A DNA stretch of 49,670 nucleotides from a virus. A program made the position numbers and the translations under genes. This document shows, in pieces, positions 1,066-4,809 of this stretch. Where the stretch lies: IMG/VR virus record IMGVR_UViG_3300032294_000946, positions 1 to 49,670 of that record, one strand, 5' to 3'. Below the pieces are notes generated by a model. That model was not told where the DNA came from and did not search any database. It saw nothing but the letters and a program-made list of their open reading frames with translations. How positions within the stretch are numbered: position 1 is the first letter of the stretch; every line of letters starts with the position of its first letter.

Positions 1066-3234
1066 TTAGAACAATTTTATTTTCTCAAACTCTTTGAAAT
1101 AAGAACCACCGAATCCAAGGCGTTCAGCCCACTTAGATATAACTTCTTGATCATGTGGTCCATTATAGTCAATACCAGGTATTGATTGACCTTCGTATTG
1201 CTGTCTTTCAGATATTTCAGCGTTTCTTTGAATATTAATTTTATTGCTTTCAATAGTCTGTTGACGAAACTTATGTTCTTCAATCTGCTTTTGTAACGCA
1301 TCTTGTTCAATAGTATTTGCTGCTACAGGAGAAGATGGTTGTTCGATATGTACTGGTCTTTCTGGTTCCATAACAGGTTGTGGCGCTGGTATATTAGCCA
1401 TTTCATTCAGTTTAGCACTTGCCATTCCAGGCAAAGAAGGAGCTATAGCACCAGCGAAGCTTCCTAATCCTCCAAGACCTCCCATAATACCAGACAGCCC
1501 AGATGCACCACCAGAACCTTCTTGGTATGCTCCTGTTGCCATTTGTATTAGACTTAGTCCATGCATTTGTTCTGGAGTTGCATCAGGTTGCTGTTGACCA
1601 CCAGAACCACCAGAACCACCAGCAGGATTTCCAGTTTGTTCGCTGCCTGAGCCAGCACTTGGACCACTAGTAACACCAGAACTACCACTTCCTTGGCCAC
1701 CTTCATTAGGACCAAACGAAAAATGCATGGTATCAAGTTTATGATTCCAGTTACCTCCCCAACCTAAACCATACTTAGCTGCCATTGCTGATACGTTTGA
1801 AGGAAGATCGTTTTTACCAGCGCCTGGTTGACCTCTATATGTTACAGGGTTAGCGTCTGGATTAATATCAATGGCCATACCTTGAGCATGCCAACTCTTT
1901 GTATTAGTTCCTGCTATGTTTCTGTTAGCGTAACCACCAATTGAACGAATCTTATATCCAGTTGCTTCTAGTTCGTCAACAAATCCTTTAAACTTTTCCG
2001 CGTATTTACTAGCAACTTGATAAGAGTGTCCAGAACGAGTCTGCAAAGTTGTTAAACCGTTTTGATCAGTGTTTTGTTTCTGAGCATCTTTTGCTCCACC
2101 GGTAATAATACCGTTATGTCTTCCTGCATTTGACTCTCCGCCTGTAGCTGGAGGTGGTTCGGCTGCAGGTGTAGCAGCTGCAGGAGGTGGGGCCGGAGTT
2201 GATGATGGTGGTGGAGGAGGAACAGGCGAAGGTGGAGGAACAGCAGGAGTTGCTTGCTTTTTTTCGTTTGTAGGTGGTGGTGCTGTTGTAACAGCACCAG
2301 TTAGTTTAGGCGCAGATTCTTGATTATTCTGACTTTTTGCTACAGTTGAATTTTTTACAACATTTGATTGGCCTCTAACTATGCTCATAATCTTTGAAAC
2401 ATAATCAGGATCTGTAGCATAACCTTTTGATTTTAATATTTGCGCAGCTTCTGCAGCTGATGAAGCGCCAGCGTACTTTGAACTCCACTTTTTAACATGT
2501 TCAGCAACAGCCTCATCAATAGATCCATAATCTTTAAACTTATCTTGGATTCTAATATTTTGACCATTGATGTTTTCTGTGGTCCATCGCATAGTGCCAT
2601 CTTCGCCAGCTTTTGCTTTCTGACCGAATACATTATGTTTACCTGATTCTCTTTTGCCCCATGAACTTTCAAGCGCCCATTGAGATGCAGTAATTTCAGG
2701 GAATTTATCACCAGCTTTCTTAGCTGCTTCATAGATTTCTTTATAGCCTTCTTGACCTTTAGCCGAACCTACTGTTTGTCCACCTTTGTCAACAGATTCA
2801 GTGAGCTTACTAAGACCCCATGCGCCAGCGACTCCTGCTCCAACAGCAGCAACATTTTTAATACCATCATAAATCTGACCAAAAATACCTTTTGAACCTG
2901 TGGCCGTTGTAAGTTGACTGCCAAGGTTAGCAATACCACCAAAGACATTCTTCATTTCAGCAAGCATATTGCTTTGAATATTGATAGACTCTAACAGATG
3001 ATTATTCATCTGGTCCATCTTGCTTGCCATGTCATGAGAAGATGAAGCTACTTCTTCAATAGATTCAGAGAGACCTGCTATTTGTTTCTTTTGAGAAAGA
3101 ATAGAAGTGCCTAGATCTTTTATGATTTTTGTTATGTTTTTATTATGTTCTTCGGAAGCTCTACGGAATTCTCCCATAGAGTTTCCTATTGACATAGATA
3201 TATTTCTAGACAGTTCTCTAATTTCTTCAGCCAT
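1066..3234 (-). CDS. Tail protein with glucosaminidase and M15 peptidase domains (candidate tape measure/tail lysin)
   Basis: A 722-aa multidomain protein. Residues 1-100 are heptad-rich, probably coiled coil. Residues 126-145 are hydrophobic and Ala/Gly-rich. Residues 165-288 resemble the FlgJ/LytG-type N-acetylglucosaminidase fold, with ALESSWG placing catalytic Glu189. Residues 318-362 are a Pro/Ala linker. Residues 392-508 are a VanY/M15-type peptidase with likely zinc ligands His449 and Asp456 (SWHAQGMAIDI) and His504 (DTMHFSF). A Gly/Ser-rich segment and a Gln-rich helical C-terminus follow. It is the last gene of the minus operon, overlapping the 57-codon ORF by 8 nt, directly behind the gp26-like chaperone. 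That position, and muralytic domains in many tape measures, suggest a tape measure or tail-lumen lysin that cuts glycan and peptide during entry. The helical portion is short for a full-length ruler, so the role is inferred. Confidence 0.8.
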   Translation of the reverse strand: MAEEIRELSRNISMSIGNSMGEFRRASEEHNKNITKIIKDLGTSILSQKKQIAGLSESIEEVASSSHDMASKMDQMNNHLLESINIQSNMLAEMKNVFGGIANLGSQLTTATGSKGIFGQIYDGIKNVAAVGAGVAGAWGLSKLTESVDKGGQTVGSAKGQEGYKEIYEAAKKAGDKFPEITASQWALESSWGKRESGKHNVFGQKAKAGEDGTMRWTTENINGQNIRIQDKFKDYGSIDEAVAEHVKKWSSKYAGASSAAEAAQILKSKGYATDPDYVSKIMSIVRGQSNVVKNSTVAKSQNNQESAPKLTGAVTTAPPPTNEKKQATPAVPPPSPVPPPPPSSTPAPPPAAATPAAEPPPATGGESNAGRHNGIITGGAKDAQKQNTDQNGLTTLQTRSGHSYQVASKYAEKFKGFVDELEATGYKIRSIGGYANRNIAGTNTKSWHAQGMAIDINPDANPVTYRGQPGAGKNDLPSNVSAMAAKYGLGWGGNWNHKLDTMHFSFGPNEGGQGSGSSGVTSGPSAGSGSEQTGNPAGGSGGSGGQQQPDATPEQMHGLSLIQMATGAYQEGSGGASGLSGIMGGLGGLGSFAGAIAPSLPGMASAKLNEMANIPAPQPVMEPERPVHIEQPSSPVAANTIEQDALQKQIEEHKFRQQTIESNKINIQRNAEISERQQYEGQSIPGIDYNGPHDQEVISKWAERLGFGGSYFKEFEKIKLF

Positions 3235-3400
3235 TCTTAGCTTTAGCCTCTTCTACTTCTTTTAGATATGCCAGAAGCATTTCGACGTAAATATCTCTTT
3301 CAAATGGCATTAAGTTTTCTATATCTGATAATGAATATTTATGGTGCTGAACAAGAGAGAATATAGTCTTATAATAATTACTGAGATTATTATAAGCCAT
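3227..3400 (-). CDS. 57-aa tail chaperone extension ORF (GT-like)
   Basis: This short ORF starts MAYNNLSNYYKTIFSLVQHH and ends EEAKAKNG. Its ATG overlaps the gp26 stop (TAATG at 3402-3398), and its end overlaps the 722-aa gene by 8 nt. It is in the -1 frame relative to gp26, and the frame stays open back to the T-heptamer, so frameshifting would give a 293-aa gp26 fusion joined through Tyr-Leu-Ile. Small helical proteins in this position are tail-assembly chaperones. T4 gp51 occupies the corresponding place but is much longer. It may be made alone, as a fusion, or both. No strong separate ribosome site is seen before its ATG. Confidence 0.7.
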   Translation of the reverse strand: MAYNNLSNYYKTIFSLVQHHKYSLSDIENLMPFERDIYVEMLLAYLKEVEEAKAKNG

Positions 3401-3415
3401 TATAAGGTAAAAAAA
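3368..3415 (-). promoter_or_regulatory. Putative programmed -1 ribosomal frameshift element
   Basis: Read on the minus strand, the gp26 codons GAT TTT TTT contain the heptamer T TTT TTT (3415-3409) in the X XXY YYZ register. A 12-nt spacer follows, then a perfect 11-bp inverted repeat CTTATAATAAT/ATTATTATAAG (3396-3386 and 3378-3368) with a 7-nt loop. Slipping back one base bypasses the TAA at 3402-3400 and continues into the 57-codon ORF. The stem is A-U rich and the spacer slightly long, which weakens but does not exclude stimulation. Confidence 0.6.
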
Positions 3416-4107
3416 TCGTTCAACGAAGTCAAGACGATCTCTCTGTCATGATCCTTTTTGTTCTTATATTTTATTTTATATTCCATGTGAGGAACAGTCA
3501 GTAAGAACTTTTGCATTTCCTGGAATGTTTTGATGTTTAGGTTTTCAAGGAAATCTGACAGCTCTTTCTTCTTATAGTCTTTCGCAGAATATATTTCGTC
3601 TCCATCATAAATTGCTTCTATGCATCGAAGAATCAATTCGAACATATAGTCTTTTTCAAGAGACATAAACTCTTTGTCGTCATAAAGAGCAGCAGAAGGG
3701 TATTTCATTATAACACCTGAACCTTCAGTGATCTTTATCTTATTGTCGGTTTCTTCTGGGAATATAACCTTTACGTCTTCTAAGTTCACATCGAAGTCAT
3801 AAACTTCTCCGTCTTCATTGTCTTTATAAGACACTTTTACGGAATTGTCTACTGAAATTGATCTTAGTTTTAAGAACACATATTCAAGATCAAACAGAGC
3901 CAACTTGTTGACGTCCAATTTAGGATCTAAACAACAGTTGTTAACGATTTGTTTGATTGCGGATAAGATTTCTGAGTCTGACTTACCTTCTTTAGCCATA
4001 AGAATAAGTTTTTCTTCCTTGACTAAAAATGGTCTAAAAGGATGTTTCTTTTTTGTTGAAGGTATTTCAATATTATAAATCGGTTGTTCAATTTTAGGCA
4101 AAGACAT
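3400..4107 (-). CDS. 26: gp26-like baseplate hub / tail assembly chaperone
   Basis: This belongs to the T4 baseplate-protein gp26 family as far as I can recognise: it opens MSLPKIEQPIYNIEIPSTKK, followed by FRPFLVKEEKLILMA, the hallmark N-terminus of the family. Length is 235 aa (T4 gp26 is about 208). The start is taken at ATG 4107, which has GGAG six bases upstream; the TTG at 4119 lies on that ribosome site and is not used. In T4, gp26 takes part in hub assembly, and gp26/gp51 have been compared with the G/GT chaperones of lambda. Here it precedes a short -1-frame ORF and a hydrolase-bearing tail protein, which supports a chaperone role. The last codons carry the slippery heptamer. Confidence 0.8.
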   Translation of the reverse strand: MSLPKIEQPIYNIEIPSTKKKHPFRPFLVKEEKLILMAKEGKSDSEILSAIKQIVNNCCLDPKLDVNKLALFDLEYVFLKLRSISVDNSVKVSYKDNEDGEVYDFDVNLEDVKVIFPEETDNKIKITEGSGVIMKYPSAALYDDKEFMSLEKDYMFELILRCIEAIYDGDEIYSAKDYKKKELSDFLENLNIKTFQEMQKFLLTVPHMEYKIKYKNKKDHDREIVLTSLNDFFTL

Positions 4108-4122
4108 ATTATACTCCAAATT

Positions 4123-4809
4123 TTATGGTGAAATATTTACTTGAGAACCTCGAGTTGCTCGAGAAGGAGCAGAAGCAGGTCTAATAGGTTGTTGTTGCAC
4201 TTCAGAACCTACAATGTTATAACTGGTATATGCAACCGATACATTCATTTTCATAATTTCTGCGCTGCCCCATGACAACGGAACTTCTCTTATTCCAGTA
4301 GGGAATGCTTCGTATAAATTTATTTTTTGTATCGAATTACCGTAATGATCATAGATAACGATCTGCATAACAGTAGAATATCTTTCTTTATATTCAAGTT
4401 CATAAGAGGGTAGATTGTTATTACCTGTGAACCCATTGCCTTCTGTGCCGCTAAAGTCATGAATGGCTCTTAGCCACTGATACCAATATTGCCAGATTTC
4501 TCCAAACTCGTCTAATATAATAGAAAAATTTATTTCTTGAAACTGTGAATTTATGGGCATCTTTTGTGTTGTGCCGATACCGTAACGGTTGATATCAGCA
4601 GTCATAATATTCATTCCTGGCGCTCTTATCTGATCTATACGTAGTTTTAGATTCTGAGCAATACGCTGAACAGGTACTTGAGTCCCAGACTGGTTGATAA
4701 GAGCATTGAAAAGAACTTGAGGAGTAGCAATATACATCTCAAACGAATGAGTATATAGATACCCATAATCGCTTACGTTCTGTTTGAAATTGTTTATGTT
4801 AAATGCCAT
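4123..4809 (-). CDS. Tail-tube-fold protein, probable baseplate tube initiator (gp54-like)
   Basis: This 228-aa protein begins MAFNINNFKQNVSDYGYLYT, parallel to gp19 elsewhere in the window (MAFNIAQFKSNGLVYGG). It shares the gp19/gp54 pattern: an N-terminal strand, a central segment resembling the tube proteins (FSIILDEFGEIWQYWYQWL, about residues 90-110), a YEAFPTGI turn and a C-terminal strand MNVSVAYTSYNIV. T4 gp54 starts tube polymerisation on top of gp48, and its C-terminal half has the gp19 fold. Location among assembly genes rather than beside sheath and tube favours initiator over major tube protein. AGGAAG lies before the ATG. Assignment as gp54 rather than another tube paralogue is uncertain. 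Confidence 0.6.
   Translation of the reverse strand: MAFNINNFKQNVSDYGYLYTHSFEMYIATPQVLFNALINQSGTQVPVQRIAQNLKLRIDQIRAPGMNIMTADINRYGIGTTQKMPINSQFQEINFSIILDEFGEIWQYWYQWLRAIHDFSGTEGNGFTGNNNLPSYELEYKERYSTVMQIVIYDHYGNSIQKINLYEAFPTGIREVPLSWGSAEIMKMNVSVAYTSYNIVGSEVQQQPIRPASAPSRATRGSQVNISP

Follow-up and report, generated by a model that had tools for sequence, protein, structure and literature searches.

The junction between the gp26 homologue of this T4-type phage and the short open reading frame (ORF) behind it is very probably a programmed -1 ribosomal frameshift site, at which a fusion of gp26 with a gp51-type domain would be made. An earlier note on the same DNA had proposed such a frameshift with a lambda G/GT-like fusion as its product, and comparison with relatives supports the proposal because a correctly phased slippery heptamer is kept (99 of 99 distinct junctions), the domain always lies in the -1 frame (154 of 154 loci), start codons for it are absent in many relatives, gp26 has a chaperone-like fold, and T4 gp51 is colinear with the predicted fusion.

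The window, by which we mean the entire stretch of DNA analyzed, is a 49.7-kb (49,670-nucleotide) viral contig of a T4-type phage. The gene order along the minus strand is a tail tube-like gene, gp26, the 57-codon ORF, and a gene for a 722-amino-acid (aa) protein. The features discussed below are as follows:

4123 to 4809, minus strand: tail tube-like gene (gp19 family), directly upstream of gp26 (PF23849, 7.5e-9; phrog_45, 2e-26).
3400 to 4107, minus strand: gp26 homologue, the putative short tail assembly chaperone (TAC-N), 235 aa from ATG (PF12322, E 1.8e-57; phrog_150, E 2e-61; AlphaFold2 pLDDT 90).
3409 to 3415, minus strand: slippery heptamer T TTT TTT, in frame and in X XXY YYZ phase, read from the sequence (T TTT TTN in the 99 distinct relatives and in 18 named phages).
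3400 to 3402, minus strand: gp26 stop codon TAA, overlapped by an ATG (TAATG), read from the sequence.
3398 to 3400, minus strand: this ATG, a possible start of a free 57-aa protein by reinitiation, seen in the sequence and, by comparison, not kept in relatives.
3368 to 3396, minus strand: perfect hairpin of 11 bp with a 7-nt loop, a possible lineage-specific stimulator, unique in the window and shared with one relative (L036) only.
3227 to 3409, minus strand: -1 frame after the slip, YLI plus 57 codons and a stop, the predicted gp51-type C-terminal domain of the long chaperone (TAC-NC) (phrog_634, E 2.7e-24; C-terminal end of phrog_150).
1066 to 3234, minus strand: next gene, 722 aa, with glucosaminidase and M15 peptidase domains (PF01832, 1.8e-19; PF13539, 1e-15).

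The gp26 protein would be 239 aa long if the upstream TTG at 4119 were the start, and this is the only gp26 gene found within the 49.7-kb record fragment; its C-terminal domain is placed in the -1 frame. From its position, the 722-aa gene would be the one expected to encode the tape measure protein. Its product (window 1066 to 3234) has a long N-terminal region ahead of the glucosaminidase and M15 peptidase domains; phrog and further searches with it returned no tape-measure match, and weak tape-measure matches were seen for genes located close to this place in phiM12, Vibrio D490, and Rhizobium AF3. It is possibly a tape measure or hub protein bearing two cell wall hydrolases.

The 3' end of gp26 reads AAC GAT TTT TTT ACC TTA TAA on the minus strand. 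A 12-nt spacer (3408 to 3397) separates the heptamer from the hairpin, in which CTTATAATAAT (3396 to 3386) pairs with ATTATTATAAG (3378 to 3368) across the loop CTCAGTA (3385 to 3379). The -1 frame runs through YLI and the 57-codon ORF for 60 open codons, with its stop at 3229 to 3227, so that the fusion from the ATG at 4107 would comprise 233 + 60 = 293 aa. These elements, their coordinates, and the size of the fusion are as the earlier note described them. Runs of seven T's by themselves are not rare, the window holding 11 against 33 expected from shuffles.

The decisive test of the frameshift reading is comparative conservation, and it singles out the heptamer as the common signal. Relatives were taken from loci found by two protein searches of IMG/VR, with both regions placed on 154 contigs; removal of identical junctions left 99 distinct ones, which form 69 clusters at 90% identity, the window included. 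Relative to gp26, the 57-aa domain is in the -1 frame at all 154 loci, and every one of the 99 distinct junctions carries an in-frame T TTT TTN 0, 3, 6, or 9 nt before the gp26 stop. The heptamer is TTTTTTT in 67 junctions, TTTTTTC in 28, TTTTTTA in 2, and TTTTTTG in 2, the last four having nine T's each, so that two registers are possible. A homopolymer error in assembly or sequencing, with one more T in reality and gp26-gp51 as one continuous gene, could be suspected for a 7-T run in a single metagenomic contig. The relatives refute it: the -1 relation recurs in all 99 of the distinct junctions and again in named genomes that were sequenced independently, and many have just six T's (T TTT TTC); we regard the probability of such an error as negligible.

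Codon use at the junction points the same way. Across the 69 clusters, the codon before Phe-Phe is GAT, AGT, AAT, ACT, TCT, or CGT; the residue that it encodes varies (D, N, S, T, or R) and its last base is always T. The first Phe of the junction pair is always TTT, compared with 69% TTT elsewhere in the same genes, and only 2 of 41 other Phe-Phe pairs in these genes give the heptamer, figures that overstate independence, since the relatives are phylogenetically linked, and are not to be read as independent probabilities. These patterns show a constraint at the junction that acts on the nucleotides and not on the protein alone.

Stimulatory elements look lineage specific, judging from their patchy occurrence around a heptamer that is common to all junctions. 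The earlier note had treated the hairpin as part of the signal and had asked whether heptamer, hairpin, and -1 frame vary together; the heptamer and the -1 frame are kept, as described above, and the hairpin is kept only in the nearest relative, L036. A second relative, L083, with 81% identity in the fused protein, carries a different stem. No other perfect stem of 11 bp or more and a loop of 3 to 10 nt exists in the 49.7 kb apart from the hairpin of the window (0.08 expected; 60 shuffles). The folding energy of this hairpin by itself does not stand out (z, -1.84; 13 of 200 shuffles did as well). The excess of structure over 58 clusters is slight (mean z, -0.77 versus -0.29; Wilcoxon P = 0.017). 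We therefore rejected the hairpin as a conserved signal; it is at most a lineage-specific helper, which may matter in the phage of the window.

Shine-Dalgarno (SD)-like elements are the second candidate stimulator. Of the 69 clusters, 23 have GGAGG 10 nt or AAGGA 8 to 9 nt ahead of the heptamer, and 24 (35%) have any 5-nt SD-like match there, compared with 3.5% of control windows; no such element was found upstream of the heptamer in the window itself. An SD-like element upstream of a slippery site is a layout like that of the dnaX stimulator. Examples are found in L128, L131, L146, P-SSM2 (L163), and S-PM2 (L186). The element often lies inside the codons of a Leu-Glu-Gly-Leu motif and is strongly tied to the T TTT TTC type of heptamer (12 of 14 clusters).

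These elements also bear on whether the RNA polymerase, rather than the ribosome, slips on the T run. Transcriptional frameshifting of this kind would be in keeping with the runs of 7 to 9 T's in many relatives. Against it, 28 of the 99 junctions are T TTT TTC with just six T's, T|TTT|TTN, the phase that tandem slippage by the ribosome needs, is kept without exception, and the enriched SD-like elements 8 to 10 nt upstream act on ribosomes. We consider polymerase slippage very improbable, though not to the degree of the sequencing error.

How the 57-aa domain could be translated without a frameshift depends on start codons. In 39 of the 99 junctions, the stretch of the -1 ORF that precedes the conserved domain contains no ATG, GTG, or TTG; in 21 junctions GTG or TTG is the sole start available there. 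In many junctions a -1-frame TGA stands right before the heptamer (AA TGA TTT TTT T). No standard start can account for the domain in the 39 start-less junctions; the simplest way to make it is a slip. The alternative is a pair of overlapping genes and no frameshift, with termination-reinitiation at TAATG producing gp51 as a free protein of 57 aa beside gp26. In the window, the ATG that overlaps the gp26 stop could give such a separate product, and gp51 has been deposited as a gene of its own in P-SSM2, S-PM2, and P-RSM6. The ATG is not conserved, however, and start types switch many times over the tree of relatives, while the heptamer is kept in all of them; Aeromonas phages 65 and CC2 lack a start ahead of the domain, and in T4 gp51 the two domains are covalently joined. 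Reinitiation as the general explanation is thus highly unlikely, even if slightly less so than polymerase slippage.

The predicted frameshift arrangement extends to named phages, 18 of 22 named records with a gp26-51 junction having the canonical heptamer. These are eight cyanophages (P-SSM2, S-PM2, S-CREM1, Syn10, P-TIM40, P-RSM6, ACG-2014a, and S-N03) together with phiM12, Astolliot, Marzo, CC2, 65, phiWae14, D490, VH7D, AF3, and XG4, and their taxa include Kyanoviridae, Emmerichvirinae, Schizotequatrovirus, Emdodecavirus, Otagovirus, Menderavirus, Pootjesviridae, and others. In Aeromonas 65, CC2, and phiWae14, the -1 ORF opens just 10 to 22 nt before the stop. These three phages and Syn10, P-TIM40, ACG-2014a, and S-CREM1 have no ATG before the conserved domain, and the deposited annotations of these seven phages either omit the domain or begin it at a later or non-ATG codon. 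The gp51 region begins at later codons in the deposits of Aeromonas 65 (L171:2292-2372) and ACG-2014a (L179:2304-2399) and is unannotated in CC2 (L167:4205-4373). Set against the predicted frameshift product, the gp51-region annotations of 65, ACG-2014a, and CC2 are fragments of it.

The remaining 4 of the 22 named records are the Ackermannviridae-like phages pertopsoe, Menlow, VP-1, and K474 (L166:4250-4330, L174:2250-2330, L168:4190-4260, and L173:2140-2200), in which the -1 arrangement is kept and the canonical heptamer is absent. The -1 arrangement is therefore not strictly dependent on the heptamer. The junctions of pertopsoe and Menlow, which belong to two genera, share a near-identical ATTTTCATTTAATTTTTGAAATTGATT and lack an ATG; those of VP-1 and K474 have an ATG at the gp26 stop. 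A different recoding signal or a reinitiation signal is possible in these phages.

The relation to T4 itself was examined with profiles of the two regions. The gp26 profile matches T4 gp26 with an E value of 1.4e-15, and the profile of the 57-aa domain matches phiAS4 gp51 at 1.9e-8 and T4 gp51 at 0.0015; hhalign of gp51 and gp26 gave 96 to 98%. In the hhalign alignment, residues 4 to 201 of T4 gp51 align to gp26 and residues 209 to 244 align to the 57-aa domain, in that order. Both T4 proteins match phrog_150, of which gp51 spans positions 13 to 280 and gp26 stops at 235. T4 gp26 is thus homologous to the gp26 described here, and T4 gp51 is homologous to the predicted fusion along its whole length: by these alignments, T4 gp51 is a gp26-like domain followed by the same C-terminal domain and would be the covalent equivalent of the frameshift product. 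The difference is that T4 has two genes, whereas the window has one gp26 gene with a -1 domain. The earlier note's statement that T4 uses two separate proteins holds, genes 26 and 51 being separate, divergent, and on opposite strands. The Phe-Phe of T4 gp26 is encoded by TTC TTT, which gives no heptamer. The same split layout is found in phiAS4 and Acinetobacter phage W16, and the frameshift layout is found in Aeromonas 65, CC2, and the KVP40-type VH7D, which are Straboviridae by record taxonomy. Because 65, CC2, and VH7D still have the frameshift layout, this unrooted comparison of layouts suggests that the split genes are derived within the Straboviridae.

The predicted structures are compatible with a chaperone function. 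The AlphaFold2 model of gp26 has a pLDDT of 90, and in a fold search its N-terminal ~90 residues match solved tail assembly chaperones. The best three matches are 3fgx (Z, 7.9), the HK97 TAC 2ob9 (Z, 7.3; 83 residues at 3.8 Å), and YqbN 3klu (Z, 6.8), with the next at a Z of 4.0; 3fgx and 3klu are prophage proteins, which we take to be of the same kind as the tail assembly chaperone. With Z scores below 8, the modeled resemblance of the gp26 N terminus to the HK97-type tail assembly chaperone fold lends support but would not settle the matter by itself. Prediction gives the 57-aa domain an all-helical fold of three helices (pLDDT, 79), and the fold search with it gave no match above a Z of 3.2. 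Neither gp26 nor the 57-aa domain had a match when solved structures were searched by sequence, and NCBIfam gave no useful match.

In the mechanism that we propose, most ribosomes would end at the gp26 stop and produce the short tail assembly chaperone. Some ribosomes at GAT-TTT-TTT would slip back one base on T TTT TTT, bypass the TAA, and continue for 60 codons, which would append the small helical gp51-type domain and yield a long chaperone of 293 aa. If lambda G/GT and HK97 are a guide, the two forms in mixture probably serve to coat or recruit the tape measure protein and to load tail tube subunits. The occurrence of slippage, its efficiency, what each form does, and a contribution of the hairpin are all inferred.

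Lambda gpG/gpGT is among the closest known parallels, with a short chaperone, a -1-frameshifted long one, and a slippery heptamer placed shortly before the short ORF ends. The lambda heptamer is G GGA AAG. It differs from the T TTT TTN found here, where, moreover, the C-terminal domain is small and all helical and the next gene encodes peptidoglycan-hydrolase domains and is at most a candidate tape measure gene. Tail assembly chaperones of long-tailed phages, as in lambda gpG/gpGT, were reportedly treated by Xu, Hendrix, and Duda in 2004. The position after the tail tube gene and the HK97 TAC-like N-terminal fold are likenesses to these chaperones.

The link between the T4 and lambda chaperone strategies, which the earlier note had put forward, had already been made. 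According to PMC10885494 and PMC12846349, Vladimirov, Gautam, and Davidson (2022, Virology 566:9-15) identified the chaperones of T4-like phages, and the former, citing that work, states that some T4-like phages dispense with frameshifting and have two genes, a short one and a longer fusion. The 2025 paper PMC12846349, which cites the same work, already calls poly-T frameshift signals in the T4-like chaperones known and reports a poly-T (GTTTTT) frameshift in the tail chaperone genes of Vandenendeviridae and Andersonviridae. Those genes resemble the present one in the poly-T slip at the end of TAC-N and in a -1 C-terminal domain that is often annotated as a hypothetical gene; they belong to other families and have another motif, in contrast to the canonical T TTT TTN here. 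The kind of switch is already known, and its distribution, with the split genes of T4 as the exception within the Straboviridae, and the lineage-specific stimulators may be new.

For the T4 supergroup as a whole, we lean slightly toward a history in which the frameshift layout is ancestral and commonest and T4 and its close kin, within the Straboviridae, exchanged it for gene duplication and relocation. The same T TTT TTN site would be aided by different stimulators, an upstream SD-like element in many cyanophage-like lineages and possibly the downstream hairpin in the clade of the window. For the window alone, this is ordinary biology, a conserved tail-assembly switch. Across T4-like genomes, dozens of stretches annotated as gp51 or left unannotated would become the tail of one frameshifted chaperone, and the frameshift layout followed by split genes would provide a natural series for asking how T4 dispensed with recoding.
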